Assembly (NCBI RefSeq): GCF_000738435.1
Contig: NZ_CP003984.1
Span: 1,302,001 to 1,366,000 of the forward strand
Reading direction: 5' to 3'
DNA from: Planktomarina temperata RCA23
GTDB taxonomy: Bacteria; Pseudomonadota; Alphaproteobacteria; Rhodobacterales; Rhodobacteraceae
DNA length: 64,000 nucleotides
Each line of letters starts with the position of its first letter. The first letter of the stretch is position 1. Of this stretch, positions 23,698 to 64,000 are shown one piece after another. The translations under genes were made by a program, and so were the position numbers. The notes under the pieces were generated by a model, which made no database searches, had not been told where the DNA came from, and worked only from the letters and a program-made list of their open reading frames with translations.

Positions 23698-23705
23698 GTT
23701 TTAAA

Positions 23706-23750
23706 TGGCTCCGGCGGTAGGGATCGAACCTACGACCAATTGATTAACAG
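23706..23750 (-). tRNA. 3' fragment of tRNA-Asn (GTT): attachment site at island boundary
   Basis: Minus-strand sequence starts CTGTTAATCAATTGG, continues through a T-arm GTAGGTTCGATCCCTAC and ends CGCCGGAGCCA. This is tRNA-Asn from the anticodon loop (CUGUUAA, anticodon GUU) to the CCA. The 5' half including the 5' anticodon stem (ATTGA expected) is missing, so it is not a functional tRNA. The break in the anticodon loop next to an integrase gene marks a tyrosine-integrase crossover site. Geometry predicts the restored complete tRNA-Asn at the far, right end of the island, outside this window. Confidence 0.8.
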
Positions 23751-45575: not shown

Positions 45576-47548
45576 TAATTCTCTTCCTTCTGGAATTCAA
45601 CGAAAAACTCGTTTGTTTGTGAACATTCAGAAGATTTTGCAGTTAGTCTTTGGATACCAGGTTCTAATACCTGAACTTGCTTTTGAGATGCGTCAAATTT
45701 TTCAGCATTCAAATACCAGTCTGCAGTTTGCGAACCGATCACTCGAATTATAGCATTATCTGATTTAATCCATGCACCGTTCTCAGGATAATCAATAAGT
45801 GTTGTGCAGACGATGCCTGCTTCAGGGAGAGAAGCCCCATTAGAAATCTGGAGTTTTGGTACTTCCGGTGATTTGAGGCCGAGGGCTAAGCCAATTTCAT
45901 TTGAAAGTGGGAAGGCGGCATCTCTACCAGTTAATATTTCTGTTGGCTGGTTGTCTGGAGTGCCAAACCAGGAAATTACTACGTGGGATTTAAAGATCTG
46001 AATGCTCCACGCATCATGCCTAGCAAAAGAGGTTCCAGTTTTAAACGCAACCCGCTCTCCATTAGGAAGATTTTGTATCAAAAGATGCATTATTTGTTTT
46101 GCAGCCCTAATGTTTAAAAATTTGGCATCTTGGTCACTGATTTTTTGACTTTGATTAGGACTGAACGAAATGTGTCTGCTCGTTCCAGGATCAATCGCTA
46201 TCAGGTATAGGCTCGCAAGCTGTTCGGCATTTAAATAAAATCCGCCAACAGCCAAGCTCAATCCTGCTTCCCTATCTGAGGTGACAGGTGCGTTGATTAG
46301 ATTTTTAATTTCAGATTCAAAAATTCTTGGATTAAGCTTTTCTAAAGTGATTAAGGCTGGGATATTTAAAGACCGTAACAAGGCTTCTTTTAAGGTTACT
46401 TTTCCAGAGTAAGTATTATCAAAGTTAGTCGGATTATATCCGCCACGGTAAAAATTAGCGTCGTTGAATACTTCATTAAATTCTATCAAATTTCGCTGAA
46501 GCGCCTTGCCGTATATCAAGGGTTTCAAAGTTGAGCCAGGACTACGCACAGCGGTCAAGAAGTTATTGGCGCCCTTCCGTTCTTCGGATCTATATTCGCT
46601 TGAGCCTACGTATGCTTTGACGTTGCCTGTTCGTCTTTCAACAATAAGGGCGGCAGCTTGTATGGGGGCGGGAAACTCCTGGATTTTTGTTTCTAAAATG
46701 TTTTGAACTTGTTTTTGCCACTCTTCGTCTATTGTCGTGTTATTTCCCTGTAAAATGAAACCAGTGAGACGGTCAGCAAGATGAGGTGCGTATGATGCGG
46801 GCTTAATTAATCTAGCTGGTAACTGTTCCACTAGAGCTTCGTTGAAAGCGTCATCATCTATATTCAGCCTGCCTTGGATTTTGTTTAGAACACCGATTTT
46901 AGCTGCATAAGCGTTGTCGGGATATCTATCTGGACGTCTGCGTTCGGGAGATTGTGGAAGTGCTACTAACAAAGCGATTTCGTTAAGTCTCAAATCTTTT
47001 GGAGGCTTTTGAAACCAGGCCTCAGACGCTGCACTAACGCCCTCAATATTGCCACCATAGGGCGCAAGCGTGAAATAGGCTTCAAGAATAGCTTCTTTGC
47101 TCCAGTGCGCATCTAGTCGGATAGCAGCAAGCATTTGTCGCAGCTTTGCCGTAAAAGTCCTTCTCGCTAAATAGGGATCCATTAAGCGAACAGTTTGCAT
47201 AGTTAAGGTTGAGGCTCCGGAAGAAATTTTACCACTTTTTAGATAGTCAAAAACCGCTCGCCCTAATGCGAGTGGATCAACACCATGATGTTTCCAATAG
47301 CGTTGATCCTCGTACGCAATTAGGGTTCTTATCAAATCTGGATCTAATTCTGATAAGATCACCCTTTCCCGCCAAAACCCCTTTGAAGTTAATCGCAGAT
47401 TCATGATCTGACCAGTTTCAGATCGGATGACTTGGGATGTTTCGCTAAACCTCCCCACTTCGGGTGGTTGTAGAATATAAAAACACAAGCTTCCCAAACT
47501 TGCCGTTGCTACAAAAATAGCGGCGTATATTGTTCGCCATCCGATCAT
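45575..47548 (-). CDS. pbpC: Penicillin-binding protein 1C (PbpC)
   Basis: 657 aa, one N-terminal membrane segment (TIYAAIFVATASLGSLCFYI). Transglycosylase GT51 domain: YEDQRYWKHHGVDP near residue 77 and SSGASTLTMQTV near 110. Transpeptidase: SPGSTLKPLIYG (SxxK) near 338, SLNIPAL (SxN) near 380 and KTGTS near 515. A C-terminal BiPBP-type region follows. Polymerises and cross-links peptidoglycan. Pairing with an alpha-2-macroglobulin gene, 4-bp overlap upstream, is a known arrangement (E. coli pbpC-yfhM). Confidence 0.95.
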   Translation of the reverse strand: MIGWRTIYAAIFVATASLGSLCFYILQPPEVGRFSETSQVIRSETGQIMNLRLTSKGFWRERVILSELDPDLIRTLIAYEDQRYWKHHGVDPLALGRAVFDYLKSGKISSGASTLTMQTVRLMDPYLARRTFTAKLRQMLAAIRLDAHWSKEAILEAYFTLAPYGGNIEGVSAASEAWFQKPPKDLRLNEIALLVALPQSPERRRPDRYPDNAYAAKIGVLNKIQGRLNIDDDAFNEALVEQLPARLIKPASYAPHLADRLTGFILQGNNTTIDEEWQKQVQNILETKIQEFPAPIQAAALIVERRTGNVKAYVGSSEYRSEERKGANNFLTAVRSPGSTLKPLIYGKALQRNLIEFNEVFNDANFYRGGYNPTNFDNTYSGKVTLKEALLRSLNIPALITLEKLNPRIFESEIKNLINAPVTSDREAGLSLAVGGFYLNAEQLASLYLIAIDPGTSRHISFSPNQSQKISDQDAKFLNIRAAKQIMHLLIQNLPNGERVAFKTGTSFARHDAWSIQIFKSHVVISWFGTPDNQPTEILTGRDAAFPLSNEIGLALGLKSPEVPKLQISNGASLPEAGIVCTTLIDYPENGAWIKSDNAIIRVIGSQTADWYLNAEKFDASQKQVQVLEPGIQRLTAKSSECSQTNEFFVEFQKEEN

Positions 47549-50500
47549 CTAGAGGAAACGATGCTTTCCGTGATTTCAGATCTACCATTAACCTCTGGTG
47601 CATACATTTCCTCAACAACTGCATCTGGAATAATTGCATTAGTTTCATATGCGGCTCGCACAGTGTAGCGAATGTAGGCAAAGGAATTTCCATGCCAACG
47701 AGACTGAAAATGAGCTATGAAACGATCATCCATTTCAGCGGTGTAAAAAGCTTTTTTACCCATATCAAAATCAAGTGTTGCTGATAAAACCCCATCTACT
47801 TTTGGATCTGCTAGAACCGCTTTTTCAATTTCAAATCCGGCTGGCAAAAGATCTGTTAGTAAAAGGTCTGATCCACTGCCACTTTTGGTCCGATCAATGG
47901 AAATGACAACCGTATACAAATCGCCCTGTTTGGCGGGTAGAACGCCTGATTTGAGATCAACGTAATCACCGTTTCTATCATACCACCATTTTTGAACCTG
48001 ATAGCCATTGTCCTGCGCTTTTATTCCCCGCCGTTTCCCCGTCGACTTTACATTCAAATAAAGTGCGGAAGACGCATTGTGAGAAATTTTAAAACCGTCA
48101 GTGAGTTGTTTCAAACTAATTGGCAATGAACCAGTTTCGTCGAGCTCGTATTTAAAGCCATCTAAACTTACTGCGGTTCCAGAAAGTGAGCGCTCTTTAT
48201 GCTTTTGCAAAGTGACTAATTTAGCATTCGAGTGCGTTGATCTGTACTGTCGCTGAGCCAGATATTCATGCGTATTTTGAATAATGGTCTCGAATACAGG
48301 AGCCAACTGGTCAGATGACAAATCGGTCAACAAATGGGCATACGCTATGGAAGATTTGCTCCATAGATTAGAAAATTGCGGTTTTTCTGTCGAAATCCAT
48401 GCGCCCGAAATTAGTTGCAGTACTGGTTCTTGCGACGTCATTTGTCCAAGTGCAAATCGAGCGTTATCGGAAATTTGAAACATTCTTTTTGTATCATTTA
48501 GATTGGCAGCAACCCAATATGCCAACACTAAATCATCGACCTGCATTGCAGAATTGTTTGATGAGTTCGTAGTTTGCATAACGTCACTTTGCAGTTCTTG
48601 ATCTATTGAATATCTCGCTCTCGAAGTAACCTCGTAACCTGCTTTTGCGAGCAGACCATAGCTGTATAATTTGGTCTCGGCGTCCCGAAAGCTTGTTCGG
48701 TAGAGATATTCCAAACCGTTTTCAATTGCGGCCTTCACTTTTGCCTTATCACTTGCAAAAGGTAACGTTTTTTGAAGGGTATCAACGGCATACGGTTGAA
48801 ATCTTTCGTACACGGCTGAATTGCGATCCCAATAGCCAAAAGCGCCAGATAACTTTTGCTTTGCCATTAAGTTATCAATCCCAATTTGAATTTTTTTGGT
48901 CGTTTCTTCAGTAATACCGCTTACTTGAGATAAGGCTATCAGGCCTCTTGTTTTAGAAGATACTTGTTCAACGCAACCATATGGGTAGCGATTAAGGTCA
49001 GCTACGACTTGTTGGAGGTTCATGCCCAGCGATGAGGTCAGACTAACCGAGTACTCATTTCCGGGTTCAGCCAAATCTATCAATGAAGACTGATATGGTT
49101 GCACTTGCACACTGCCAAGGCCAAGCCAATTTTTCTTCTCTAATTTTGTGGATGAAATCTCGGTAACTGGGTACGAACTTGAACGAGAAACGATACTGTA
49201 GTTTCTGGTGTATTCCTGCCCGCCCGCCATTACTGCGACACTGATTGGAACTCTGCCTAAGCCTTTTGCTGAAATAGGAAGCTCCAGTTTGTATGAGTTG
49301 GTCTCGGGTTGCGAAATTATAGAGGTCGTTTTTATATCAAAAACCCGTGTTGTTAACTCAATTGGACCTTTGAATTCATTCCATCTGACATTGAGTTTTG
49401 CGACAACATTATCAATTGGAGTTACAAATCTAGGCATCGACACATCGATACTGACTGGATCTTGAACTGTTATAAATTCTTCGGTGAATCCAAAGCCTCT
49501 ATCATCGATGCTAAAAGCCACAACCCTTAGCTTACCCTCCCATTCAATTGTTGGCGGGAAGGTAAATTCTGCTTGTCCGTTTTGGATATCGAGCAGGGGA
49601 CTTGCGTATGTTACTGTCTTGAAGAATTCAGATTTATCAGCAGCGGCAGCGGCGGATAACATATCCCCATCACCGCCAACTCGGAGTGTAGAAAGATCTG
49701 AGTTTTGGGAGATGAGTTGTCCAAAATTTGTGAATACCCCAAAATTTAACGCTCGCTCACTCAAAAAATGGTCTTTCAAATTTTTGTTTTGGTAACCGGT
49801 TAGAGCGTGTATGCCTTCATCAATTACAAATATTTTAGCAGTCCCGGACTTTGACTGCGAGCTCAAGGCAACTGTTATTGGCGTAGCGCTATCAACATCT
49901 CTAACAGAATTAATTTTTAGGCTTACATTACGCTCGGATGATACGTTTGAGACCCAAGTTTTGCCTATAGATATTTGCGGTAAATGTTCAGAACCCTTTT
50001 CTATAGGACGCACCAAAGACGCTAAGAGGTGCGCTCCAGGCTCTGAAATATTCGGCAGGGGTATCTGCACCTCGAAATCACCTTTGACCACAGATACAGT
50101 TTCCAGAGAGACAATATCTTGATCAGCGACTAACACAGACAAAGTTCCAGAATATCCTGCATTACCTCGTAAGATCCCGTTTGTGTAAGACAGGGAGAGT
50201 TCTTCTGGCTCCGAGGCCGGTTTAGCATCGGCTCCCCAACCAGAAAAGAATTCACTTACTGTTTTGAACCCGGCTTCGTTGGATACGGTAATTTCATAGC
50301 GTCCCCAATCGAGGGGAGTTCTTACAGTGAGTTGTTTGCCGGAAACGATACCAGCCTCTATGACCTCAGTATCTACCCGGACCCTGTTCCAGCGCCAGCC
50401 ACTATTGTAGAACCAATTGTAGTCATAATAAATTTTTCGGACGCTATAAGAGACGTTATCAAAGTCGAGAGGTTTACCTGCTCGAGTTACGTTTACGATC

Positions 50501-52560
50501 GTAAACGATGGAGTAGAGCCCTCATCAATGTACGTTTCAAAGTCTTTTCTGATGCCGACGTAGCTGCTTATTGTATCCAGTGGGATATTTAGCCGAGCCG
50601 TGTTTGCTCTACCGCCAACGTCAAAAACGGTACCATCGATTGAGACTTCGTATAGACGAGACGGATCTGTATCAAAGTCGGTTAGAAGCGTTGCAGCCAT
50701 TTTGCCTTCCAAATCTAGCTCAGACTGAAATTCGTTTAACGCCGCTGTGGTTGAACTACCGACATTGCCAAACACAAAATCTTCTAATTCTGGCACGCCT
50801 ATGTTGTCGGTTGTTTTAACATAGGTCGAGATTTGTGCCTTCATCCCTCCCGTAGGACCCCCAGAGTAGTAATCTCCAGATAATTGAATTTTTTGAGTAC
50901 TGTTCAGTGACCAAATTTCATTGTTGGTTTGTAATTTAGGCTCGATAGTCAGGGGCACAAAATCTTCAAGTCTGATAACATGGTTGGCAAGAATAAGGTC
51001 ATCTACACTCTTAATTTGGACAGTATACTGCCCAAGTCTGTAGCTTTGCCCAAGGTTGAGATCTGCCTCAAAAGCCCCATAACTATCTAATTTAAGGCTT
51101 GCCCTTTTAATTTGATTGCCATTTCGATCTACCAAGTGAACATAAAGCTCATCACTTCCAATAACATCTAGGTCTAATTTCCGGACTACGCCGAAAACGG
51201 AAACCGTTTCGCCAGTTCGATAGATTTCACGATCGGTTGTTACATAAACGTCTTCGAGATTTTGTTTTATTTCACCACCACGAAGGAACTTAGGCTTTTG
51301 CTTGAGATCGGGCACTTGCAAGATACTAGTCCCGAATTTGTCAGAACTGACGACAAGATATTCAGGTGTGAATCCGCCTGATCCAGCGAGCAAATTGTTG
51401 GATACGCTTAATCTACCGCCGTCAGTGGTTGTTCCTTTGAAGAGTTCTCGGTTGTTGCCGGCAATAATTTCAACGGTGGCGCCATCAATCGGATTGGTAT
51501 TTTCAAAACTTTTAAGAAGGATGTCAGTCTTATTGAGTCCACTAAATACTTGTACCGAGATATCTGAAATCGAGAACCATTGTGTTGGTTGATTTTGGTA
51601 GGAACGGATTTCAATGTCTGGTGATGTGAATGTTGCAACAAATACACCTCTCTCATCGGCGCTTATCAGATCAGAGAAATTTAGATTGATGCTTTGTTTT
51701 TTGTTGAGTGGACTATCAAGTTTTATAGTCTTTTTAGTGAGAACGTCTCCCCAGTAATTGCTGAGACTGTCAACATCGTAACTATCTAAAACATTAAAAA
51801 TGGAACTGTACGAAGTCAGTGAAGCCAGATCTACCCTGTGCAACGATATTTCGATTTCATTAACATTAACGTACTCTAAAGGAATAACGGCATTCTCGGC
51901 ATTGGTAAGAATGGTTTTAGAACCATCAACGGTTAGTTTGGGGCTCATGCTTGGCGTTTTCACTTGAAAGGAAATAGGCTGATCCAAAGTAACCGAGTAT
52001 GACTGTCGCTTAGCTTCGAGACCTGGCAGCAATGTGATTTGGTACGATGTGGAGTGATCTAAGCCATTGACGCAAAATTCACTCTGATTGTCTTGCCAGG
52101 AAAAAATGTCTTCTGGCTTTGTAACTGTATAGCCGTCGACGATGCTATTATTTGCTTTGACTTCAAAATACATTTGATAATTTTCATTGGCGAAGGTCAG
52201 GCTATTGCCATTATTTTGTGTAGTCATGGTTGTGCATATGGAGGCGTTATTTCCCAAATCCGAGCCACGTGCGGGGTATGTCGTGAAGGCTGAGTTCGTT
52301 GTCGGTTGATAGAACAGTGCTGCATCTGCATTAAAAATGCGATCTTCGAAAGTGAATGTTGCAAGCCTACCGCTTGGGGAAATTGACTGTGAGACATCAA
52401 TGGTGCCTAAAAAATTTACTGTTGAGCCAGCAGGTATCGTGGTCGAAGAGTTTACCACAATATTTTCAATTGAAACGTGTCGTCCAAAGCTTTCAGAATG
52501 CAATAATGAAGGAAGCATCAGCGAAACCACTAGGATTAAACATCTAAATATTTGGCCCAT
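47545..52560 (-). CDS. Alpha-2-macroglobulin family protein (YfhM-like)
   Basis: 1671 aa, exported: signal peptide MGQIFRCLILVVSLMLPSLL with no lipobox, so probably periplasmic rather than a lipoprotein. Macroglobulin-like domains fill the N-terminal part (TTDREIYRTGETVSVFGVVR). The thioester motif GCVEQ is at about residue 1196 (core C-V-E-Q rather than CLEQ), inside the thioester-containing helical domain that extends to about 1450; a bait region is expected between. Protects the envelope by trapping proteases. The first gene of a four-gene operon with pbpC, exonuclease I and the HNH nuclease. Confidence 0.95.
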   Translation of the reverse strand: MGQIFRCLILVVSLMLPSLLHSESFGRHVSIENIVVNSSTTIPAGSTVNFLGTIDVSQSISPSGRLATFTFEDRIFNADAALFYQPTTNSAFTTYPARGSDLGNNASICTTMTTQNNGNSLTFANENYQMYFEVKANNSIVDGYTVTKPEDIFSWQDNQSEFCVNGLDHSTSYQITLLPGLEAKRQSYSVTLDQPISFQVKTPSMSPKLTVDGSKTILTNAENAVIPLEYVNVNEIEISLHRVDLASLTSYSSIFNVLDSYDVDSLSNYWGDVLTKKTIKLDSPLNKKQSINLNFSDLISADERGVFVATFTSPDIEIRSYQNQPTQWFSISDISVQVFSGLNKTDILLKSFENTNPIDGATVEIIAGNNRELFKGTTTDGGRLSVSNNLLAGSGGFTPEYLVVSSDKFGTSILQVPDLKQKPKFLRGGEIKQNLEDVYVTTDREIYRTGETVSVFGVVRKLDLDVIGSDELYVHLVDRNGNQIKRASLKLDSYGAFEADLNLGQSYRLGQYTVQIKSVDDLILANHVIRLEDFVPLTIEPKLQTNNEIWSLNSTQKIQLSGDYYSGGPTGGMKAQISTYVKTTDNIGVPELEDFVFGNVGSSTTAALNEFQSELDLEGKMAATLLTDFDTDPSRLYEVSIDGTVFDVGGRANTARLNIPLDTISSYVGIRKDFETYIDEGSTPSFTIVNVTRAGKPLDFDNVSYSVRKIYYDYNWFYNSGWRWNRVRVDTEVIEAGIVSGKQLTVRTPLDWGRYEITVSNEAGFKTVSEFFSGWGADAKPASEPEELSLSYTNGILRGNAGYSGTLSVLVADQDIVSLETVSVVKGDFEVQIPLPNISEPGAHLLASLVRPIEKGSEHLPQISIGKTWVSNVSSERNVSLKINSVRDVDSATPITVALSSQSKSGTAKIFVIDEGIHALTGYQNKNLKDHFLSERALNFGVFTNFGQLISQNSDLSTLRVGGDGDMLSAAAAADKSEFFKTVTYASPLLDIQNGQAEFTFPPTIEWEGKLRVVAFSIDDRGFGFTEEFITVQDPVSIDVSMPRFVTPIDNVVAKLNVRWNEFKGPIELTTRVFDIKTTSIISQPETNSYKLELPISAKGLGRVPISVAVMAGGQEYTRNYSIVSRSSSYPVTEISSTKLEKKNWLGLGSVQVQPYQSSLIDLAEPGNEYSVSLTSSLGMNLQQVVADLNRYPYGCVEQVSSKTRGLIALSQVSGITEETTKKIQIGIDNLMAKQKLSGAFGYWDRNSAVYERFQPYAVDTLQKTLPFASDKAKVKAAIENGLEYLYRTSFRDAETKLYSYGLLAKAGYEVTSRARYSIDQELQSDVMQTTNSSNNSAMQVDDLVLAYWVAANLNDTKRMFQISDNARFALGQMTSQEPVLQLISGAWISTEKPQFSNLWSKSSIAYAHLLTDLSSDQLAPVFETIIQNTHEYLAQRQYRSTHSNAKLVTLQKHKERSLSGTAVSLDGFKYELDETGSLPISLKQLTDGFKISHNASSALYLNVKSTGKRRGIKAQDNGYQVQKWWYDRNGDYVDLKSGVLPAKQGDLYTVVISIDRTKSGSGSDLLLTDLLPAGFEIEKAVLADPKVDGVLSATLDFDMGKKAFYTAEMDDRFIAHFQSRWHGNSFAYIRYTVRAAYETNAIIPDAVVEEMYAPEVNGRSEITESIVSSR

Positions 52561-53827: not shown

Positions 53828-55492
53828 TCAATCCGTTCCTTGTTCGGCGATGATATCTATGATTTTTTGTTTATTTAACTTAAAAGTAATATGTGCCGAG
53901 GCCTCATAACGGGTCAAAGAGAAATCCAGTTTTAAATGGTTTTCCAAAATTGAAATCTGCTTCTCTGTCGGTTCTTCAGTCAACCATGCTTTGGTTTTAT
54001 GAGCTGCATCTTCGGTTTCGTTCTGGTTTAACCAATCATCTGCAGCGGCCAATGCATTTATATGCTTTCCAACAGACAAAACTTTGGGATTCACGCCCTT
54101 TTTACCGCCAATAGAATACCAGTGTCCTTGATAGAAGAAGACGCCTCCCCAAGCATCAAAGCCTGCTGAGATGAACGCAGAATGGTCCGAAAACAAATTT
54201 ACCCATTCAAAACTTGAACGGTTCAGTAAGTTGATCTCCATCATCTCTATGGACGATACTAATTCTGGTGTATCCTTGTCTCGTTCTGTGCGGAAATCGT
54301 AACCACACATTGGACATTCTTGGGAGGCCAGTGGGACGACTGCGGCGCATTCTGGGCAAGTCATTGTGAGTGCAACACCCTCAGTTTCAACACCGTCTAA
54401 GCTCACATCTTGTTCTAGCGTTCCGTGCAGTATGGAAGAAGTTCCAAAATCTAAAATGATGCAGTCGCTTTTTATGACTCCAGGATGTTGTTCTGAGTTG
54501 ACTGTTCTCAAACCCCTTCCAACCATTTGGATCATGGTGGATTTAGCCGAACTTGGGCGAAGTAATACGACACAACTTGTTGGGGGATGATCCCATCCCT
54601 CGGTCAGGACTTGCACATTAACAATCACTGTTACATCGCCACGAGCGTAGCGATCTAAGATATTTGAACGATCGGCGCTAGAAAGTTGTCCAGTGATGGT
54701 TTCGGCTAGAACATTTCTATTTCTGAATGCTTCGGTGACTGCTTCTGCATGCTGCACGGTAGAGCAAAACACAACTGTTTGTCTGCTTTCACCCTTTTCG
54801 AGCCACTGATCAACCACTGCATTATTAATAGGGCGTTGGTTCATAATTTGATCAACAGCGCTCATATCAAAATCAGCGCCAGATTTTTTCACACTCGACA
54901 GTTGGTTTTTGACCCCTACGTCAATTACAAACGTTCTTGGCGTAACAAGATGACCTGAACGGATCAATTCTCCCAGAGAAATTTGATCTGATACTTGAGA
55001 GAAAACCTCTCTGAGGCCCTTGCCGTCGCTTCTATTAGGGGTGGCTGTAACTCCAAATATTATACAGCTTGGGTTTAAAGCTAGAGCGTGATTTATAACC
55101 GTCCTGTAAGAGTTTGCAGCGGCGTGATGAGCTTCATCAATGACCAGTAGATCGATTTTCGGCATGGAGCTGATATTGTCGGACGCAAATAGGGTTTGCA
55201 CCATGGCAAAGGTAACTTGACCACTCCAGTCTTTGGTTTTTGAGTTATAAACTGAGGTTGCGATAGATGGGTTTACCCACGAAAACTTTGTTTGATTTTG
55301 TTCGGTCAACTCGTCTCTGTGTGCAAGAACAAGCGTTTTCGCCTTGGTACCTGTTATGTACTGGCCAATAATTTCCGAAAACAAAATGGTTTTACCTGCT
55401 CCGGTAGGAGCAATGCCAAGGGCGTTTCCATTAGCTTTTAGAGCAACAAGGCTGCGTTCAACGAAATCTTTTTGGCGTGGCCTAAGTAGCAT
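53828..55492 (-). CDS. Superfamily II DEAD/DEAH helicase with C-terminal zinc finger
   Basis: 554 aa. Walker A IAPTGAGKTILFSEI near residue 28, DEAHHAAANSYRTVI near 119, FGVTATPNRSDGKG near 150 and helicase C motif VGRGLRTVNSEQHPG near 330. A CxxC zinc ribbon lies near 377-400 (CPECAAVVPLASQECPMCGY). The same domain order is found in phage and mobile-element helicases of the type III-restriction/SSL2 class. Likely unwinds DNA. The gene follows the 178-aa gene with a 5-bp gap on the same strand. Confidence 0.88.
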   Translation of the reverse strand: MLLRPRQKDFVERSLVALKANGNALGIAPTGAGKTILFSEIIGQYITGTKAKTLVLAHRDELTEQNQTKFSWVNPSIATSVYNSKTKDWSGQVTFAMVQTLFASDNISSMPKIDLLVIDEAHHAAANSYRTVINHALALNPSCIIFGVTATPNRSDGKGLREVFSQVSDQISLGELIRSGHLVTPRTFVIDVGVKNQLSSVKKSGADFDMSAVDQIMNQRPINNAVVDQWLEKGESRQTVVFCSTVQHAEAVTEAFRNRNVLAETITGQLSSADRSNILDRYARGDVTVIVNVQVLTEGWDHPPTSCVVLLRPSSAKSTMIQMVGRGLRTVNSEQHPGVIKSDCIILDFGTSSILHGTLEQDVSLDGVETEGVALTMTCPECAAVVPLASQECPMCGYDFRTERDKDTPELVSSIEMMEINLLNRSSFEWVNLFSDHSAFISAGFDAWGGVFFYQGHWYSIGGKKGVNPKVLSVGKHINALAAADDWLNQNETEDAAHKTKAWLTEEPTEKQISILENHLKLDFSLTRYEASAHITFKLNKQKIIDIIAEQGTD

Positions 55493-55497
55493 TTAAG

Positions 55498-56034
55498 TTA
55501 CTCCCTCATCCACATGGGTGAACTGACCGCCGCAGTAAGTTTTGAAGTCAAGTCAGTCTGCCGCAATCGTGGGGAATGAACTTCGATGTTACTGTCTTCG
55601 GGAATAATTACTTCGTCTATTTCATTTACCTCGTAGCCTTTATAATCTTTTGCAATCTTGATTTTTGCTTGAAATTTGGAACCGTCTAAATCTTTCAACG
55701 ATTTTAAACGCCGGCATCTTAAGGCCTTCTCCGAATTTTCGTTTTTGGACAAAGCATGTTTTGAATTTAAGATGTTTAAAATTAGTTCTCGGCCTCTTTT
55801 GCGCCACCAAGGCCCCTTTGGGCTTTTCAAACCAATCCGTATTTCAAATTTTTTACCAATGTGTCTACCTTCAGTGACTGAGCACTCTGCCCGAATATAC
55901 ACAGACCCAGTTTTTGATATCGTAGCTAACCCATTGGTCCAACCTTGTGATGGGTCACTGTGGCCTCCAGGTAATATGATAAGCCTGAGGAATACGACCG
56001 TGCCAGAAGGTATCAAATTTCTATTTCTCGACAT
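55498..56034 (-). CDS. Unknown protein paired with the superfamily II helicase
   Basis: 178 aa, basic. The sequence (PSGTVVFLRLIILPGGHSDP, SVYIRAECSVTEGRHIGKKF) suggests a mainly beta-strand OB-fold, as in single-stranded DNA-binding or annealing proteins, but I cannot confirm that. Ends five bases before the helicase start, so the two are cotranscribed. Diverges from the kinase gene. Confidence 0.55.
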   Translation of the reverse strand: MSRNRNLIPSGTVVFLRLIILPGGHSDPSQGWTNGLATISKTGSVYIRAECSVTEGRHIGKKFEIRIGLKSPKGPWWRKRGRELILNILNSKHALSKNENSEKALRCRRLKSLKDLDGSKFQAKIKIAKDYKGYEVNEIDEVIIPEDSNIEVHSPRLRQTDLTSKLTAAVSSPMWMRE

Positions 56035-56096
56035 TTGCCTAATCTGATATGTTAGCTTTAATAAGTCTACATTTTTTTGGTCGGATGGTGCGAATT

Positions 56097-57374
56097 ATGT
56101 CTTCAATTGTGACATTTGAAAAACTTTATATGTCCGTTCCTTTTGAAGATAAGGATTGGGCAAAAAATAATGGCTTTAAGTTTGATAGGATGGCAAAAGC
56201 TTGGTATCTGCCTCCTGGTAAAAATCCATTAGAATTTAAACAATACTGGTCATATCTTGAAAACACATACCATGATCGTCACGAGTTGAAAAAGAGAGGC
56301 TGCCGTTTCAATTCTAAATTGAAAAAGTGGTATGTTCCTTCGGATTGTCAGGAACCATACTATGAATTTGTGAAGTGGTGGCCTGAAAGCCTGAAGCAAT
56401 TCGTGTTTAATGATAAATTTATTATCGAAGACTATATCTCTAAAACGGGCCAATCTGAAATGTTTAAAGCCAGAAGTCTCCATGATGGGGAGTTTTATGC
56501 TATAAAGTATTTTTTAGGTGATGTTGCAAATTTTTCTAACGATGCTCATCGCAGGGCTATAGATAGCGAAATCAATGCTTTGCGAAGTTTAGAAGATCAT
56601 CCGAATATTTTAGAAATTGTTGAGTGGGATCAAATTGCGGACAGCTCTCGATTTTATATCGTTTCGCCTTGGATGCCACTTGGAAGCTTGGATAACTACA
56701 TAGGGCGGACAGAGTCCGAGATTGCCGACCTGATTTTTAGTGCTTTCAAAGGGACTTATGATTTAAACCTGCAAGACATTCCAGACGATGATTTAGAAGA
56801 TAATTTAGATACAGAAACGGATGTTTGGCTTGATGAACATCAAATAATTCATGGTATTTTAGATGGAATTGCTCATGCGCATGCAAATAACATTCTTCAT
56901 CGGGACATTAAGCCAGGCAATATACTTTTAGATTGGGTAGATAACGAGGTTGAAAGTGCCAACTTTGTGCCGTTGTTGTGCGATTTTGGTACATCTAAAA
57001 CTTTCTCACGTGATACAATCAAAGAGAGTGAACATACAGTGGTCGGCCTGAGAACACGGCCGTACCGGCCTGAATTCATCGCATCTTCAGCGCAAGGTAA
57101 AAAAGAAATTTCTCATCAAAAAACATGGGATTTATTCGCTTGGGCTATAGTAACTATTGAACTAATGGCGGATCGATCAGTAGATTCATCTGAGGAAGCA
57201 TTGGAAATTTTAGATGCTGAAATAGCGCCTAAACTTGATGAAGCGATTGTGAATCTCATTAAATCTGCATTGTCGTTTAACCCAAATCTAAGACCCCACG
57301 ACACTGACGATTTTCGAAGAAAATTAAACAAACTTACCGAACAGCGTAAAAAGCGGCTGGCATGGACCAATTAA
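56097..57374 (+). CDS. Ser/Thr protein kinase with two N-terminal DUF5710 repeats
   Basis: About 425 aa from the ATG at 56097 (in-frame earlier ATGs at 56049 and 56085 exist). Two DUF5710-type repeats occupy residues about 9-36 (LYMSVPFEDKDWAKNNGFKF) and about 55-83 (LKKRGCRFNSKLKKWYVPSD). The kinase domain begins near residue 110; it has a catalytic loop ILHRDIKPGNILLDW near 266-280 and CDFGTSK (D-F-G) near 293-300, so the kinase is complete. It overlaps the phosphatase gene by 13 bp. A signalling switch for a defence or stress module is inferred. Confidence 0.88.
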   Translation: MSSIVTFEKLYMSVPFEDKDWAKNNGFKFDRMAKAWYLPPGKNPLEFKQYWSYLENTYHDRHELKKRGCRFNSKLKKWYVPSDCQEPYYEFVKWWPESLKQFVFNDKFIIEDYISKTGQSEMFKARSLHDGEFYAIKYFLGDVANFSNDAHRRAIDSEINALRSLEDHPNILEIVEWDQIADSSRFYIVSPWMPLGSLDNYIGRTESEIADLIFSAFKGTYDLNLQDIPDDDLEDNLDTETDVWLDEHQIIHGILDGIAHAHANNILHRDIKPGNILLDWVDNEVESANFVPLLCDFGTSKTFSRDTIKESEHTVVGLRTRPYRPEFIASSAQGKKEISHQKTWDLFAWAIVTIELMADRSVDSSEEALEILDAEIAPKLDEAIVNLIKSALSFNPNLRPHDTDDFRRKLNKLTEQRKKRLAWTN

Positions 57375-58081
57375 GCCTGTCCATAGATGCGTACACGCAG
57401 CAGGGCTTGCGCAGATCCATCAATCAAGACTGTATTGGTATAGGAAGCTGGCGGGGTGGAGCAGGGGGCGGCACAGAACTCTCGTTAAATTATCTGTGTG
57501 AACAAAAATCTGAACTATTTTTGTTAAGTGATGGAATTGGCGGACACGATGATGGAGAAATCGCAAGTCGATTCTCCGTCGATAGCATTTTTGAATTATT
57601 CCAAAGCCAAGAGGATTTTGACATATTAACGGCGATTTCCATAACACATGACAAATTAGTGAATATTGGATTAGGCTCATTACGCCCTTTAGGTGCAACG
57701 CTGGTGGGATTAATTTTTACAAAAAACTTGGTCACAATATTTAGTTTGGGCGACAGCGCTTGCTACCACTTGAACGGTGACAAGCTGGTTAATTTAACAG
57801 AGGACGTGAAATCATCAAAACCGCACTTTAATGTCATTGAGCAGTGCCTTGGTGGAGGGATAACAAAACCAAATCCTAGCATAGTGAAACGAAAATTCAA
57901 AATTGGAGATGTATTTATACTAACATCAGACGGTGTAAGTAATTGGGCAGATAAAGAACAAATAAAAATGACCATCCAATCGAAACAGTTAAGCTTTAGT
58001 AGAAAACTGTGCTCGATTGCAAAAAAATCTGGCAGCAATGATGATCTGTCAGCAGTGGTAATAAAAATAAAATCTCTTTGA
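57362..58081 (+). CDS. PP2C-family Ser/Thr protein phosphatase
   Basis: 239 aa. Metal-binding and catalytic motifs: RRSINQDCIG near residue 18, LLSDGIGGHDDGEIASRF near 54, TIFSLGDSACY near 124, ILTSDGVSNWAD near 185 and GSNDDLSAVVIKI near 225. These are PP2C (PPM) motifs with the acidic metal ligands intact. Starts inside the kinase gene, 13-bp overlap, so the two are produced together. Presumably reverses phosphorylation done by the kinase. Confidence 0.92.
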   Translation: MDQLSLSIDAYTQQGLRRSINQDCIGIGSWRGGAGGGTELSLNYLCEQKSELFLLSDGIGGHDDGEIASRFSVDSIFELFQSQEDFDILTAISITHDKLVNIGLGSLRPLGATLVGLIFTKNLVTIFSLGDSACYHLNGDKLVNLTEDVKSSKPHFNVIEQCLGGGITKPNPSIVKRKFKIGDVFILTSDGVSNWADKEQIKMTIQSKQLSFSRKLCSIAKKSGSNDDLSAVVIKIKSL

Positions 58082-58133: not shown

Positions 58134-60215
58134 TTATGCAAGATCATAGAGGTATTTGCTGCCAGCTCCGACACCAGTTACCAATAAACTTTCTCGAGCT
58201 CGAGTACAGGCTACATAAAGAAGTTGCCGCTCAGTTCTTTCTATCTCTTCAATGTCTGCTTTCTCGGTAAATAGCCGCATCCTTTCATGCAGTGGTAAAG
58301 CGTCCTGATCACAAGCTATCACCGCAACCGATCTAAATTCTAAGCCTTTAGCTAGATGCATCGTGCCATAGTTTATTGAGCTATCATCACCGTCTAATTT
58401 ATAGTTCAGGACGACCCCAGTGTTTCCACTTTTTTTAATAGCGTTCAGAGCTCTTTTATATTGATGCTCTGTCCTAACAAACACCCCAATTTCTGTAGGA
58501 GCTATACCCTCAGAAATTTGTTTTTCTATCCAATCTGAAACAATTTGTGCCTCGCTTACCTCATCGTCATTTAGAATAATTCTTGGTAGTTCACCTCTGA
58601 AAATTGATATTGTACCTGATCTATCTTCTGCCTGGTTATCACCATCTTTAATTTTCTTTGGTAATAACAGGTCCGCTTGCGCTCTAATCTGCTGGGAAGT
58701 TCTGTAATTGACCTTCAGGATATTTGATTTCCCCCTGACGTCCACGCCAAGCGAACTCCACGAGAATGGCGCTCGGAAAATTCTTTGTCCGATATCGCCT
58801 GCAAAGAACAATCCATTGGACTTTTTGCCGTAATGTCTAGCCAAAAAAGAGAGCTCGGCAGAAGAAATATCCTGAGCCTCATCAACAATTACGTGATCGT
58901 ATTGGGCAACTTTATCATGTGCTAAGTTTAACTCCCTAAAAATGCGTGACCATGTGGTTAACTTACGCTTTTTCAAAAGCAGCTTAGTTTCTTCAAAGAT
59001 TAGCCATAAGTCTTTTCGTTGATTGATGCCAAGTTTTGACTTTCGACCTAAACGAGAAAGGTCCGTGTATTCTTGTAATGTTTCAATACCCCAATCATCA
59101 ATTACGTTGTCCCATTCGGACAACAGAAAACCGTTTTCATAATTCGTGACTTCGGCTGACTGAGCAGATCTCTGAAGAAAGTTCACAAGCTGAGTTTTGG
59201 ACACAATGTTAGGGTTTTGCCCATTTCTTTTCAAATGTGCAGAGGCAAGGCCCTCCAAATGAAATACATCTATTTTATCTAATGCTAATGGGTCTTTTGC
59301 TAAAAGTATCTCAAGTTTCTGCTGTAGTGCAGCTGCAAGAGTTTTTGTAAAAGTGCAGAGAAGTATTTTTTTTGTTGGATCTTGTTTGTGCAGATAGGCA
59401 GCTCGATGAAGTGCAACTATTGTTTTTCCCGTGCCTGCTGATCCAGAGACACGTGCTGATCCATTGTATGATAGCTCTGTGAACTTCTTTTGCTCTGGAT
59501 GTAAAAAGACGGTCCATTTATGCCACGGAAAATCAAGCGCTGCATGTAAACCAGCCTCGTCTGATACCAAAGCAAATCGCCTTCTTGCATCCGGATGGTT
59601 CAAACCCAATTCATCCTCCAATTCGATGTCTTGGGATGTGGGTGTCGGTAGAACTAAATCGTCTTCAGAAATTCCTCCTGCCGCATATTCAATCAGCTTT
59701 TCTGATGCCTCTGCTGGAAGTTTTTCAGTGAGTTCAAAAAACATAGATTCATCGCAAGTTTGTACATGAAAAACGAACTCTTCTGGGACACCAATTGCAG
59801 CTAATTGTTCTTCATCAAGTTCGGCAAATAACTTATCAGGTGCAAGAGTGGCTGATGAAGTACCCCAGATATTAGTATCTTTACTGGACTCCTTGACCTC
59901 AATAATTTGAGCGGCTCCGGTTTTGGGATGTTTTCGGATGACCCTATTAGCGGCCCATTTGTAAGCATCATCGTGATGATCAACGTATGTCAGCATTACT
60001 GATTTGCCAGATTTATGCGCAATTATACGAATATCTGAGTTTACTCTAACAGACCAAAAATTATTATCTTTTGCTCGATCTAACCTATGAAATTGGTTTG
60101 AATTACCTGAGATGTTCAATTGAATGTCAAAAGCTTTGGCCTTAACGATTTTTTGCTCTTGGTTAGTCAAGTTCTCAAGGCTCTTTTGAAATGTTTCTGC
60201 TATTCTGAATTCCAT
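58134..60215 (-). CDS. UvrD-like helicase with RelE/ParE-like N-terminal domain
   Basis: About 694 aa from the ATG at 60215 (MEFRIAETFQKS); an ATG at 60272 would overlap zorA. N-terminal residues 1-95 resemble the RelE/ParE fold: FRIAETFQKSLENLTNQEQK, FWSVRVNSDIRIIAHKSG, VMLTYVDHHDDAYKWA. Superfamily I helicase: Walker A GSAGTGKTIVALHRAAYLHK near 255, VIVDEAQDISSAELSFLARH near 450, MHLAKGLEFRSVAVIACDQD near 620 and ACTRARESLLVTG at the end. Divergent from zorA across 58 bp. A defence-linked helicase is likely. Confidence 0.86.
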   Translation of the reverse strand: MEFRIAETFQKSLENLTNQEQKIVKAKAFDIQLNISGNSNQFHRLDRAKDNNFWSVRVNSDIRIIAHKSGKSVMLTYVDHHDDAYKWAANRVIRKHPKTGAAQIIEVKESSKDTNIWGTSSATLAPDKLFAELDEEQLAAIGVPEEFVFHVQTCDESMFFELTEKLPAEASEKLIEYAAGGISEDDLVLPTPTSQDIELEDELGLNHPDARRRFALVSDEAGLHAALDFPWHKWTVFLHPEQKKFTELSYNGSARVSGSAGTGKTIVALHRAAYLHKQDPTKKILLCTFTKTLAAALQQKLEILLAKDPLALDKIDVFHLEGLASAHLKRNGQNPNIVSKTQLVNFLQRSAQSAEVTNYENGFLLSEWDNVIDDWGIETLQEYTDLSRLGRKSKLGINQRKDLWLIFEETKLLLKKRKLTTWSRIFRELNLAHDKVAQYDHVIVDEAQDISSAELSFLARHYGKKSNGLFFAGDIGQRIFRAPFSWSSLGVDVRGKSNILKVNYRTSQQIRAQADLLLPKKIKDGDNQAEDRSGTISIFRGELPRIILNDDEVSEAQIVSDWIEKQISEGIAPTEIGVFVRTEHQYKRALNAIKKSGNTGVVLNYKLDGDDSSINYGTMHLAKGLEFRSVAVIACDQDALPLHERMRLFTEKADIEEIERTERQLLYVACTRARESLLVTGVGAGSKYLYDLA

Positions 60216-60273
60216 TTGTGGTGTGTGCTCTGTCCTAAGAAATTTCGCTTTGGCTGATGACAAGCGTCTCATT

Positions 60274-62124
60274 ATGAAATATTTGAGTCAAGTAATAGGA
60301 AAGATGGTAGGTGCACTAATGGAATTCATTCAAGCTATTGGTTTGCCCGTAAAGAAAGCAATTTTGTGGTTGGCTGGTGTTTTAACCGAAAGTAACCTTG
60401 ATACGTTGTCATCAGAAAAAGGTGCTGCGCCTGGTTTTGTTGCAGCATTACTTTTTGTCTTCCTGATTATTGGAGTACTTATTTATTCGTTTCAAGTAAG
60501 ACGAAAAAGCCAAGCCATTTTGTGGCTTTATAAACTTATAAAAAGTTACGAAACCCCCCAAGAATTTACGCAGAACATAACAGATATTGACATAGAAGTT
60601 AGAAAGCGTTGGGGGCAAAACGCTTATGATGAATTGGCACGTGGTTGGCTAGAATATAAAGAAACCCTTGTACTATATGGAGAGGGCGATAGCCGTCACC
60701 TTCGCAATTCTGTGAGGCCGGCAACATTTTTCAATGCTGAAGACCTTAATTTCACTCCTGGGTCTTGGAAAATCGTACCTGGTTTATTCGTTACGATTGG
60801 TTTGTTTCTTACATTTTTGGGCCTAGTTGCTGCGCTGGATAGCTTAAAGGTTAGTGGAATGGATGCTGCGCAGCTCAAAGCTAGCCTTCAAACCTTGCTA
60901 GAAACGGCCTCTGCAAAATTTGTTATGTCGTTAACTGGATTGGCCTGCTCGATAATTTTTACTATCAGGCTTCGCACCGGTGTTTCGCAAATCGAGAATA
61001 GATTACATGAATTGGCCAACCATACTGAATTTCTTCTGAAATTTATATCTCTGGAAGATATTGCATCGGATCAACTCGCAGCGATCAAGGAACAAAAAGA
61101 GCATTTTAGAACTATTGGTTTGGAACTCGTTGCCGAGTTAGGTCGGCCGCTCAAGGAGGATCTACCAATAACGATTGCACAATCGATTTCTGACGCAATG
61201 TCTCCGTTAATCTCTCAAGTTACTGAAGTAGGAACTGAGGGTGTCGGAGGGATGGTCAGTGATTTATCTGAAAAGTTTTCAAAAGATGTAAGCGGAGCCT
61301 TAGAAAGTGCCTCATTAAGCATTCAGGCTGCTGGAGATAAAATAGACCAAAGTTCTGCTAACATAGGTGCTGAACTTTCATCTTCGGTATTGGCTCTTAA
61401 ACAAATGATAGATGAGGTTCAGGGAAGCACCAGGGAACGTATGCTCGATACTGGGGAGGCGCTTGCGAGTAGCTTTGGCCAAACTGCAAATCAAATTACA
61501 GAGCAAGCAAATTCCCTTTCGGACACGCTCATTGCACCATTGAACGATTTGCAGGCAAAAATAGCCATTCTAAGTTCTGATATTTCAGAAAGTGGCGCCC
61601 AATTTAAAGTAATGTCAGAAAGTGTTAAACTTGGTGCAGATGCGACGCAAAAAGCAGCTTCATCTTTCGAGAAATCTGCGCAAGATTTCTCAAAAGTAAC
61701 GTCACCCATCAATCGTTCTATTGAGCTTATTGCTGGGTCTATTAGTGATTTAGAGGACTCCACAGCGAATGTTAATGATACCCTGACGGAGGGTATAAAG
61801 CAGCTCATGGCATCTAGTGAAAATGCATTGAATTCCGCTGTAGAAATAATCAGAGGTGAACAGTCCGCACTGGAGAATGCGCTTCAAGGAATGCAAGATG
61901 TTATCGAAGAATTTAGAGGGCAAGGTGACCGTCTGGACGAGTTGGACGAAAAACTTGGCGTAGCATTTGAAACTTATGCCGAGCATGTTGAAAGTCAGCT
62001 TGAAGAGATGAAACTTCACGCAAGAGATCTTACAGAACGCTTAACTCCTGCTTTGGACAAAATGCGTGAGGTTGTGGAGCACGCAGAGCAGTTTATTCCA
62101 GAATCTGGAGTTCAGCGTAGATGA
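60274..62124 (+). CDS. zorA: Zorya anti-phage system membrane motor protein ZorA
   Basis: 616 aa. MotA/TolQ/ExbB-type proton channel: transmembrane segments at about residues 52-72 (FVAALLFVFLIIGVLIYSF), 169-190 (IVPGLFVTIGLFLTFLGLVA) and 211-232 (AKFVMSLTGLACSIIFTIRL). From about 270 a long coiled-coil cytoplasmic tail follows, as in ZorA. Start ATG at 60274. Overlaps zorB by 4 bp. With ZorB it forms the proton-driven motor that senses envelope perturbation during phage infection. Confidence 0.93.
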   Translation: MKYLSQVIGKMVGALMEFIQAIGLPVKKAILWLAGVLTESNLDTLSSEKGAAPGFVAALLFVFLIIGVLIYSFQVRRKSQAILWLYKLIKSYETPQEFTQNITDIDIEVRKRWGQNAYDELARGWLEYKETLVLYGEGDSRHLRNSVRPATFFNAEDLNFTPGSWKIVPGLFVTIGLFLTFLGLVAALDSLKVSGMDAAQLKASLQTLLETASAKFVMSLTGLACSIIFTIRLRTGVSQIENRLHELANHTEFLLKFISLEDIASDQLAAIKEQKEHFRTIGLELVAELGRPLKEDLPITIAQSISDAMSPLISQVTEVGTEGVGGMVSDLSEKFSKDVSGALESASLSIQAAGDKIDQSSANIGAELSSSVLALKQMIDEVQGSTRERMLDTGEALASSFGQTANQITEQANSLSDTLIAPLNDLQAKIAILSSDISESGAQFKVMSESVKLGADATQKAASSFEKSAQDFSKVTSPINRSIELIAGSISDLEDSTANVNDTLTEGIKQLMASSENALNSAVEIIRGEQSALENALQGMQDVIEEFRGQGDRLDELDEKLGVAFETYAEHVESQLEEMKLHARDLTERLTPALDKMREVVEHAEQFIPESGVQRR

Positions 62125-63416
62125 GGTCCCTTGGACGAAAACGCAGAGACGAAGACGAAGAGGAGTCTGTCTTTGTTCCAATGACGGATATGACCGTTTC
62201 ATTTTTGTTTATTGTTATGATTTTACTGGCATTCTTCGCCGTACAATTTACGGATGAAGATAATGTACCACGTTCGATCTATGAGGAAGTTGTTTTAGAG
62301 CGTAATGGTCTGATCGAGGAGGTGAAGCGCTTAAACATAGAGATCGATAAGCTGGAAACGTTGATAAAAAAACTTAAGTTAGAGAATTCAAATTTAACAA
62401 ACCAAAATACTGAGCTCACTGCAAAGAATTCTCGTTTAGATGGTGAAATTAAAATTGCTCTCCGTAAAATTTCTGAACTTAAAGAAGACGTTTCCTTGTT
62501 AAAGGCCGATTTAGCGCAGGCAGATGAAAAAATCAAATCTTTAACTCTAAAAAACAATGATTTGACAGATCAGCTTCAGAAGCTTGAAGATGAAAAGAAT
62601 GATTTATTAAAGGTAATCGATCAAAAGGATGAGTTGCTCAGATCAAAGGATGACATAATTGCCTCTCTAGAACGTAGTGTCAAAAATCTCAATGATCAAG
62701 TTACTGTAAAAAATCAAAAAATTTCTGAATTAGAGCAACAGCTAGAAGAGCTTAAGGCAAAACTAAAAGATGATCCGTTAGAAGCTTATTTGATTGAGTC
62801 ACAATATCGAAGAACGGCCATCTTATCTGAAATTGAAAGAAAACTAAAAATAGAATTCCCGAATATTCTAGTAGAAGTAAGTCCGGAGAATGATGCGTTG
62901 AGGTTCAAAGGTGATGGATTGTTCACATCTGGATCTAGCCAATTAAGCTCATTAAAAAGAAAGATTGTTGAGAAGGTTGGAGTTCTGGTCACGGATGCAA
63001 TTGAGTGCTTTACGATAAATCCAAAAGAGCCTGACTATAAATCCTGCAATCCAGATGGGATACTAATTGAAGCAATCCAGATTGAAGGCCATACCGATAA
63101 TACTAGGTTCGTAGGAGCAGATGGCAGAGATAGGAATATTGAGTTGTCTGCTAAAAGAGCGACATCAGCATTTTTTGCAATGAAAGACGCTAAGCCTAAC
63201 CTGCTATCCTATCAAAATTTGAAAGGGCAGCCTGTAATATCAATCGCTGGATATGGGGATATGCGCCCTGTCAACATTGACCCCAAGATGAAGGCTGAAA
63301 ATCGTCGTATTGATCTACGATTGATTATGTTCACTCCAGTAAGCAGAGATCAGATCAATATTATTCAAAGGCGGATCAAAAGTGATCTTGAAATCCTTCT
63401 TGAGGAGGTAAAGTGA
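62121..63416 (+). CDS. zorB: Zorya anti-phage system protein ZorB (MotB/OmpA-like)
   Basis: 431 aa. One transmembrane helix near residues 24-45 (MTVSFLFIVMILLAFFAVQF), preceded by the predicted proton-binding Asp in VPMTD (residue 23). A long coiled coil, about 55-215, then an OmpA-like peptidoglycan-binding domain with QIEGHTDNTRFVGADGRDRN near 315-335. Partner of ZorA. Ends in TGATG overlapping the zorC start, with TGAGGAGG upstream. Confidence 0.94.
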   Translation: MRSLGRKRRDEDEEESVFVPMTDMTVSFLFIVMILLAFFAVQFTDEDNVPRSIYEEVVLERNGLIEEVKRLNIEIDKLETLIKKLKLENSNLTNQNTELTAKNSRLDGEIKIALRKISELKEDVSLLKADLAQADEKIKSLTLKNNDLTDQLQKLEDEKNDLLKVIDQKDELLRSKDDIIASLERSVKNLNDQVTVKNQKISELEQQLEELKAKLKDDPLEAYLIESQYRRTAILSEIERKLKIEFPNILVEVSPENDALRFKGDGLFTSGSSQLSSLKRKIVEKVGVLVTDAIECFTINPKEPDYKSCNPDGILIEAIQIEGHTDNTRFVGADGRDRNIELSAKRATSAFFAMKDAKPNLLSYQNLKGQPVISIAGYGDMRPVNIDPKMKAENRRIDLRLIMFTPVSRDQINIIQRRIKSDLEILLEEVK

Positions 63417-64000
63417 TGTCTCTTAGCGAAGTTCTAATTCGTCGTAGCCAACCAGCAACACCGTCATCTGTACCAAATACCAACTATGTGGAGTCAGCAA
63501 TCAATCGAATTTTTGATCGTTGGCCAGACATTAACCCTGAGGCACGAGAAGAAGATCACGAAAAAATTTTATTACAATTAAATGATATTATTTTTAAAAA
63601 CATCTGGGAAGATGTTAAAATATCGTTTGTAATTTCGGGTTTCAATATTGCGTTCTTGGAAAGGTACAATAATAGACCTGATGTGCAGGTTATTACAGAT
63701 TTTGCATTTAATGAATTGCGAGCAACGACGAAGCCATCAATAGTAAACGCACTGATGCGTATCTACTCTTCCACTTTTTCTTTGGGCTCTGAAAATACGA
63801 AAAAACTTGGAGAGATGCTAGTATTAAAGACTGAATTATTAAGTCAAAAATGGAAAGGCATATTATATGAGTTTCCCGATTATCTTTTACCACAGCAAGC
63901 CCCTGAAACTATAGCGGACTTTATGTTATTGAGAAAAACTCCTTGGGTCTCGTTAAAGCAGGCTGGCTTTAATGATCCATTTGCCTCTGGCATTATGGAT
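63416..64000 (+). CDS. zorC: Zorya protein ZorC, N-terminal part (runs off window)
   Basis: Open for 195 codons from the ATG at 63416 to the right edge, with the strong ribosome binding site TTGAGGAGG. Begins MSLSEVLIRRSQPATPSS and contains the helical segments expected for the EH-signature protein ZorC (INRIFDRWPDINPEAREEDH; FELPDYLLPQQAPETIADFM-like). Its place directly after zorB supports the assignment, giving a Zorya type I-like locus; zorD (a helicase) would lie beyond the window. Confidence 0.82.
   Translation, partial: MSLSEVLIRRSQPATPSSVPNTNYVESAINRIFDRWPDINPEAREEDHEKILLQLNDIIFKNIWEDVKISFVISGFNIAFLERYNNRPDVQVITDFAFNELRATTKPSIVNALMRIYSSTFSLGSENTKKLGEMLVLKTELLSQKWKGILYEFPDYLLPQQAPETIADFMLLRKTPWVSLKQAGFNDPFASGIMD

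Follow-up and report, generated by a model that had tools for sequence, protein, structure and literature searches.

The KKP module (PfkA-PfkB-PfpC) is a published anti-phage system composed of kinases and a phosphatase (PMC11341870). The two kinases are described there as jointly toxic, and the PP2C phosphatase PfpC neutralises them. The trigger is Gp59 of T4, a helicase loader, which binds PfpC and modestly inhibits it. The gene for the PP2C comes first and is followed by the genes for the two kinases. PfkA carries a cold-shock domain and PfkB carries an FHA domain. Control of prophage production is a further role of KKP (PMC11341870). The part that protein phosphorylation plays in phage defence has been little explored so far. 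A literature search with phage defence, serine threonine kinase and PP2C in combination returned no paper, and KKP was found separately (PMC11341870).

The locus described here probably encodes a rare anti-phage switch based on phosphorylation. It lies on the chromosome (3,288,122 bp) of Planktomarina temperata RCA23, in a stretch of 64,000 nucleotides, which is called the window below and whose coordinates are used unless another contig is named. The unit comprises a gene for a Ser/Thr protein kinase of 425 aa (56097..57374, + strand) and a gene for a PP2C phosphatase. The whole kinase protein matches PF00069 (3.5e-25) and the DUF5710 model PF18974 (1.4e-16) in Pfam. No other Pfam model matches the ORF; no helicase, cold-shock or FHA domain was found on it. 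Two DUF5710 repeats are located at the N-terminus, at 56121..56249 (+ strand, 2.1e-11) and, as a weaker match, at 56253..56384 (+ strand, 9.6e-6), when the repeats are scored apart. The kinase domain follows at residues about 120-400. The catalytic motifs YAIK, HRDIKPGN and DFG are all present by eye, and the Gly-rich loop is degenerate by eye. Both the two N-terminal repeats and the complete catalytic loop with DFG had been recognised in an earlier inspection of the letters without database searches (the sequence-only reading), and both hold.

Among PDB sequences, 46 distinct ones match the whole kinase at 1e-5 or better, and the best (1e-10) is a calcium-dependent protein kinase. An AlphaFold model of the whole kinase, built from two sequences, was discarded at a mean pLDDT of 34.6. 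The DUF5710 domain model, built from 17 rows, has a mean pLDDT of 76.6 and a predicted beta-alpha-beta-beta-alpha order. No PDB fold matches this model below E 1.4, and the DUF5710 profile has a single match among PDB sequences, at 0.73.

The PP2C gene (57362..58081, + strand) is a complete ORF encoding a Ser/Thr phosphatase of 239 aa. It matches PP2C_2 in Pfam (PF13672, 4.8e-7), and the motifs NQD, DGIGGH, TSDG and NDD are present by eye. The match to the NCBIfam Stp1 model is 1.2e-26 with 93.7 bits, under the cut-off of 230. The sole PADLOC match is PDC-M21C (5.3e-6), over 24 residues. The two genes of the unit overlap by 13 bp and both ORFs are intact, as first proposed.

The kinase models of PADLOC with the highest scores are MkoA (106.8 bits), mad6 (97.6) and PD-T4-6 (82.8). 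With 31 kinase domains in the tree, support is 97/97 for a group made up of the window kinase, that of the second copy of the unit (contig L002, described below) and seven MkoA domains. Six of these seven MkoA domains entered the tree because their PP2C, not their kinase, had matched, and thus the grouping is not built in for them. The MkoA grouping has support of 94/99 in a reduced tree of 21 rows, where L002, near-duplicates and most long rows were dropped, and 89/96 in a tree of 20 rows, where the nearest MkoA was also left out; both values are below the tool's star level and neither show nor reject the grouping. All these trees are built on about 29% identity, with a long branch for the window kinase. 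The tree grouping and the best PADLOC model indicate that the kinase domain, for all its long branch, belongs to the MkoA type. A viral scan with a four-row kinase alignment returned 23 loci, in six of which two kinase matches come after a PP2C match. This is the KKP-like order, and the ORFs were read in two of these loci, L168 and L170. The window kinase is placed apart from the kinases of L168 and L170 in the kinase tree.

The PP2C tree gives no supported place for the window PP2C, and the rows closest to it by path belong to Mokosh PP2Cs. The PP2C matches 82 plasmid records, of which 14 were opened. Six of the 14 relatives sit in MkoA-MkoB-PP2C operons in which the PP2C gene overlaps; PADLOC recognised MkoA in every one of the six, and MkoB in all four operons whose second gene was scanned. 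The other relatives are in T6SS loci (5/14), in PknB/FtsW clusters (2/14) and in a locus with no annotated kinase (1/14). Homologues scattered in housekeeping contexts had been named as an argument against a defence module, and the result is divided: the T6SS and PknB/FtsW relatives speak against defence, and those in Mokosh operons speak for it. Among the class genomes, 19/385 match the PP2C, in 23 rows. Ten of these stretches were opened; four have a kinase match too, and two showed no PP2C match when searched again here.

At least 80% of MkoA is matched by 18 plasmid records. At 1e-10, the Mokosh PP2C has a match in seven of the 18 as well, suggesting a PP2C brake in some Mokosh operons; six of the seven were opened. 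All seven are alphaproteobacterial and the eleven others are cyanobacterial or actinobacterial; distant Mokosh PP2Cs could be missed here because the PP2C query is alphaproteobacterial. A literature search on Mokosh with phosphatase or MkoA gave no paper naming a Mokosh phosphatase among those listed. The PP2C-bearing alphaproteobacterial Mokosh operons are those of L011, L194, L195, L196, L197 and L199, and a DUF3800 gene follows in three of the six.

The sequence-only reading called DUF5710 on a kinase unusual, and the distribution confirms this. DUF5710 is present in 15/357 class genomes, RCA23 included, with 34 matches. For 30 of these matches the loci (about 1.5 kb on each side) were available, and a kinase or PP2C match lies beside DUF5710 only in the two loci of RCA23. 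None of the 384 other class genomes matches the kinase at 1e-10. Further genomes with kinase matches are one in the phylum sample (398 genomes), one among the relatives (61) and seven in the family sample (394); these samples share genomes and cover only a small portion of each group. All these matches cover residues of the catalytic part only, and no other DUF5710 kinase is among them. The plasmid search with the kinase returned five records, none spanning both the DUF5710 and the kinase parts. The phage search with the kinase gave no match at 1e-5, the viral scan with a two-row kinase alignment gave no relative, and none of the 23 loci from the four-row alignment has a DUF5710 match. No paper was found in a literature search on DUF5710 with kinase. 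The DUF5710 region itself matches 952 plasmid records at E up to 1, of which 710 are conjugative. The gene names among the 60 DUF5710 plasmid matches listed are mostly zincin-like metallopeptidase, DUF5710 protein, TraC and primase. It is plausible that DUF5710 has a role in sensing DNA-processing machinery.

A tRNA-Asn gene (L004:12720-12794) is located beyond the window end, at about 76.7 kb when its numbering is continued, and a 50-bp repeat at 23701..23750 is identical to the 3' end of this tRNA-Asn plus 5 bp. The repeat is the left attachment repeat, and the window unit therefore lies inside a 53-kb tRNA-Asn island. A further copy of the tRNA-Asn end (64 bp, 97%) is found at about -12.7 kb. 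Other contents of the island are a type I RM system, a NERD/UvrD-type helicase, a Schlafen-AlbA protein, a GmrSD-like HNH protein and an integrase fragment. A tyrosine-recombinase fragment of 199 aa (PF00589) is seen inside the island at 39557-40156. At 44172-52560, genes for an alpha-2-macroglobulin and a penicillin-binding transglycosylase adjoin a DEDD exonuclease, which strongly matches the PADLOC RTasSbcB model (2.6e-127).

A single genome_contigs scan, which reaches close relatives only, returned L002 and L003, the latter a kinase-only stretch that is 26% identical. L002 is a contig of 3,685 bp from a MAG labelled Flavobacteriaceae, whose name includes HE327, the label of a North Sea cruise. 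The gene order of L002 is the same as in the window (part of a helicase, a 178-aa protein, the kinase and the PP2C), in the same orientation, and the contig end falls inside the helicase. The nucleotide identity between L002 and the window is 89% over 3.3 kb. Alignment of the last 249 bp of L002 with the right ends of three tRNA-Met elements in the RCA23 genome covers 193-250 bp at 76-88%, and the end of L002 shows a 46-bp exact match to the 3' end of tRNA-Met. Based on this end, L002 is most likely a mis-binned contig of a relative of P. temperata. Because L002 lies at the end of a tRNA-Met element and the window unit lies in the tRNA-Asn island, the unit appears in two kinds of integrative element. 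The RCA23 genome (G000) contains a tRNA-Met gene and then three copies of its 3' end, at 686.5, 732.4, 779.3 and 872.4 kb (L014-L017). Similar element right ends precede the tRNA-Met end copies, as in three tandem integrative elements, and in L014 and L015 near-identical integrase-like ORFs, found by eye, adjoin the repeats on the right.

Purifying selection acts on all four genes, with dN/dS of 0.05-0.21 between the window and its sole relative. The values are 0.086 for the kinase, 0.206 for the PP2C, 0.048 for the helicase (280 shared codons) and 0.146 for the 178-aa gene. The kinase/PP2C unit is real, under selection and mobile. The window PP2C (57362-58081) and its counterpart in L002 (L002:2702-3436) share 89% identity in residues 1-110 and 60% in the rest, where dS is saturated. 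This drop in identity after residue 110 suggests recombination inside the gene.

The left neighbours had been taken for a superfamily II helicase pair. This is not the case; only one of them is a helicase, of the SF2 superfamily, RadD-like and of phage type, and the other is a different protein. The helicase (554 aa, 53828..55492, - strand) matches PF04851 and PF00271, as well as PHROG 16 DNA helicase (1.3e-90), and scores 174 bits against the NCBIfam RadD model, whose cut-off is 720. It lies downstream of the gene for the 178-aa protein (55498..56034, - strand), which belongs to PHROG 2300, a family of unknown function, and has no match in Pfam, PADLOC or NCBIfam. The 178-aa gene is divergent from the kinase gene. 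By the ORF starts, the intergenic region between them is 62 bp (56035..56096), and the gap is also 62 bp in L002, provided that matching starts are taken.

The 178-aa protein has at least 549 relatives among 600 pattern stretches in an IMG/VR scan, and the neighbourhood counts are from the best 80 of them, with up to 6 kb on each side and many loci shorter. A helicase match, always on the same strand, is present in 76/80 of these viral loci and absent from 4/80, and in 70 of the 80 no more than 250 bp separate it from the 178-aa match. The two genes thus form a phage-type pair, and the window repeats the viral arrangement of the 178-aa gene and then the helicase on one strand. At 1e-3, these 80 viral loci gave no match to the PP2C, to the kinase or to its DUF5710 part. 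In our reading, the neighbours of 178-aa relatives in an Agarilytica plasmid (annotated) and in Shinella (ORFs by eye) resemble phage replication regions. From this place, an ssDNA-binding role for the 178-aa protein is only a guess. Decaying prophage debris was considered as the identity of the pair and is ruled out by the dN/dS of 0.048 and 0.146, since genes under purifying selection are not decaying remnants.

To the right, a UvrD-like helicase gene (58134..60272, - strand, PF00580 6.1e-20) is convergent with the PP2C gene and therefore outside its operon, and it does not appear in the 249 bp that follow the PP2C in L002. The N-terminal part of this helicase shows a weak match to HigB/RelE-type toxins (PF05015, 1.2e-4), under the cut-off. 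A type I Zorya system follows at 60223..64000 (+ strand), with PADLOC matches to ZorA1 (5.4e-216), ZorB1 (8e-97) and ZorC1 (4.4e-45); zorC is partial and runs past the window end. A UvrD-like helicase next to zorAB had been described as a flank of the pair, and it is indeed there, with zorC in addition, although the helicase does not share the operon. In the place of ZorD, outside the window, is an SNF2 protein (L004:1457-4579), whose best NCBIfam model is ZorD, with 281 bits against a cut-off of 1500. Between the PP2C and zorA there is just the UvrD-like gene, so the kinase/PP2C pair might be accessory genes of this neighbouring Zorya. We regard this as very improbable: zorA, zorB, zorC and the ZorD-like gene exist without the pair, and in L002 the tRNA-Met attachment site comes within 249 bp after the unit, with no Zorya. 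L002 is short, and Zorya could lie further upstream there. Zorya membership is set aside because L002 continues into the tRNA-Met site without Zorya, and the unit is probably not part of that system. The expectation that such pairs lie near defence genes holds for the window copy, in its defence-rich island. It does not extend to L002, a 3.7-kb contig on which no defence system was recognised; the window copy is therefore the only one seen beside defence genes.

The preferred reading, to which we give a probability of about one half, is a two-gene phospho-switch on a mobile island that gives protection from phages or other DNA invaders. By analogy with KKP, the pair would be a kinase effector and a PP2C brake. 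The kinase, once released, would phosphorylate proteins of the cell or the invader and stop growth or replication. The overlapping PP2C would be the built-in neutraliser of the kinase, and the DUF5710 repeats would sense or dock on the DNA-processing machinery of the invader. Here the toxicity of the kinase, its neutralisation by the PP2C, the trigger and the role of DUF5710 are what we infer. A distinct defence module had been suggested for the pair. The MkoA-like kinase domain, the PP2C relatives in Mokosh operons, the KKP precedent and the defence-rich island support this, and the PP2C relatives in T6SS loci and PknB/FtsW clusters, the phage-type pair and the single defence-side copy weigh against it. 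The known copies of the unit are two only, from close relatives.

A pure kinase/PP2C system leaves the conserved phage-type pair unexplained. All four genes may form one unit, in which the kinase and the PP2C guard or regulate the phage-type pair, for example as a bait for takeover by a phage or as the element's own switch for replication. This is possible but doubtful. The same genes, orientation and divergent gap in both copies, and the selection on the helicase and the 178-aa gene, fit such a unit, as does the triggering of KKP by a phage helicase loader (as described in PMC11341870). However, the kinase and the PP2C are missing from the 80 best viral loci with the 178-aa gene, and L002 ends inside the helicase. 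The window and L002 copies are close relatives, and thus shared descent alone could keep the four genes together. It is rather unlikely that the pair has a regulatory role for the mobile element or the host, such as control of stress, excision or transfer, instead of defence. The PP2C relatives in T6SS and PknB clusters, the control of prophage production by KKP itself (PMC11341870) and the DUF5710 matches, mostly on conjugative plasmids, are compatible with regulation, but in the trees the kinase groups with MkoA and not with the kinases of T6SS or PknB loci, and the island is defence-rich. A guard system combining these elements is more speculative, and we consider it quite unlikely: an unfused kinase of the Mokosh lineage with DUF5710 sensors would be held by the PP2C check, with the captured phage-type pair alongside as bait, and a phage that engaged or blocked this bait would release the kinase.

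The preferred reading, the two-gene phospho-switch, can be compared with several known systems. The sequence-only reading had named a known defence family with this exact architecture as an argument against a distinct module, and each of the systems compared here departs from the window unit. The TerY-P triad consists of a kinase, a PP2C and a vWA (TerY-like) partner. The window unit shares the kinase and the PP2C, but no vWA protein was found among the seven flanking ORFs scanned with Pfam (53.3-64.0 kb), in agreement with the first inspection. Housekeeping Stp1/PknB pairs and T6SS pairs resemble the unit in the opposition of kinase and PP2C and in the PP2C family; the window kinase is outside those groups in the trees, and no T6SS or division genes are among the same seven ORFs. 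MAD6 of MADS is the best NCBIfam match of the kinase and its second PADLOC match, but its 92 bits are under the curated cut-off of 460, and no other mads model is among the PADLOC matches listed for the flanking and island ORFs. The unit resembles KKP in a kinase activity that would be opposed by a co-encoded PP2C, and in its location on mobile elements (PMC11341870). It differs in having one kinase gene followed by the PP2C gene, whereas KKP has the PP2C followed by two kinases (PMC11341870), and in the lack of cold-shock and FHA domains on the window kinase. With Mokosh type I, the unit shares the grouping of the kinase domain with MkoA kinases, and the PP2C gene overlaps the end of the preceding gene in the six MkoA-MkoB-PP2C operons as it does here. 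In contrast, MkoA is a kinase fused to an SF1 (AAA_11/AAA_12) helicase, as seen in L011, and the window kinase is unfused and preceded by two DUF5710 repeats. MkoB is not found in the PADLOC matches listed for the flanking ORFs (the best 25 for the kinase and both helicases). Three lines meet in the locus: kinases of the MkoA type, neutralisers of the PP2C family, and the DUF5710 domain of unknown function, which is common on plasmid DNA-transfer proteins. The unit belongs to neither Mokosh nor KKP, although its kinase links it to the former and its likely logic to the latter.
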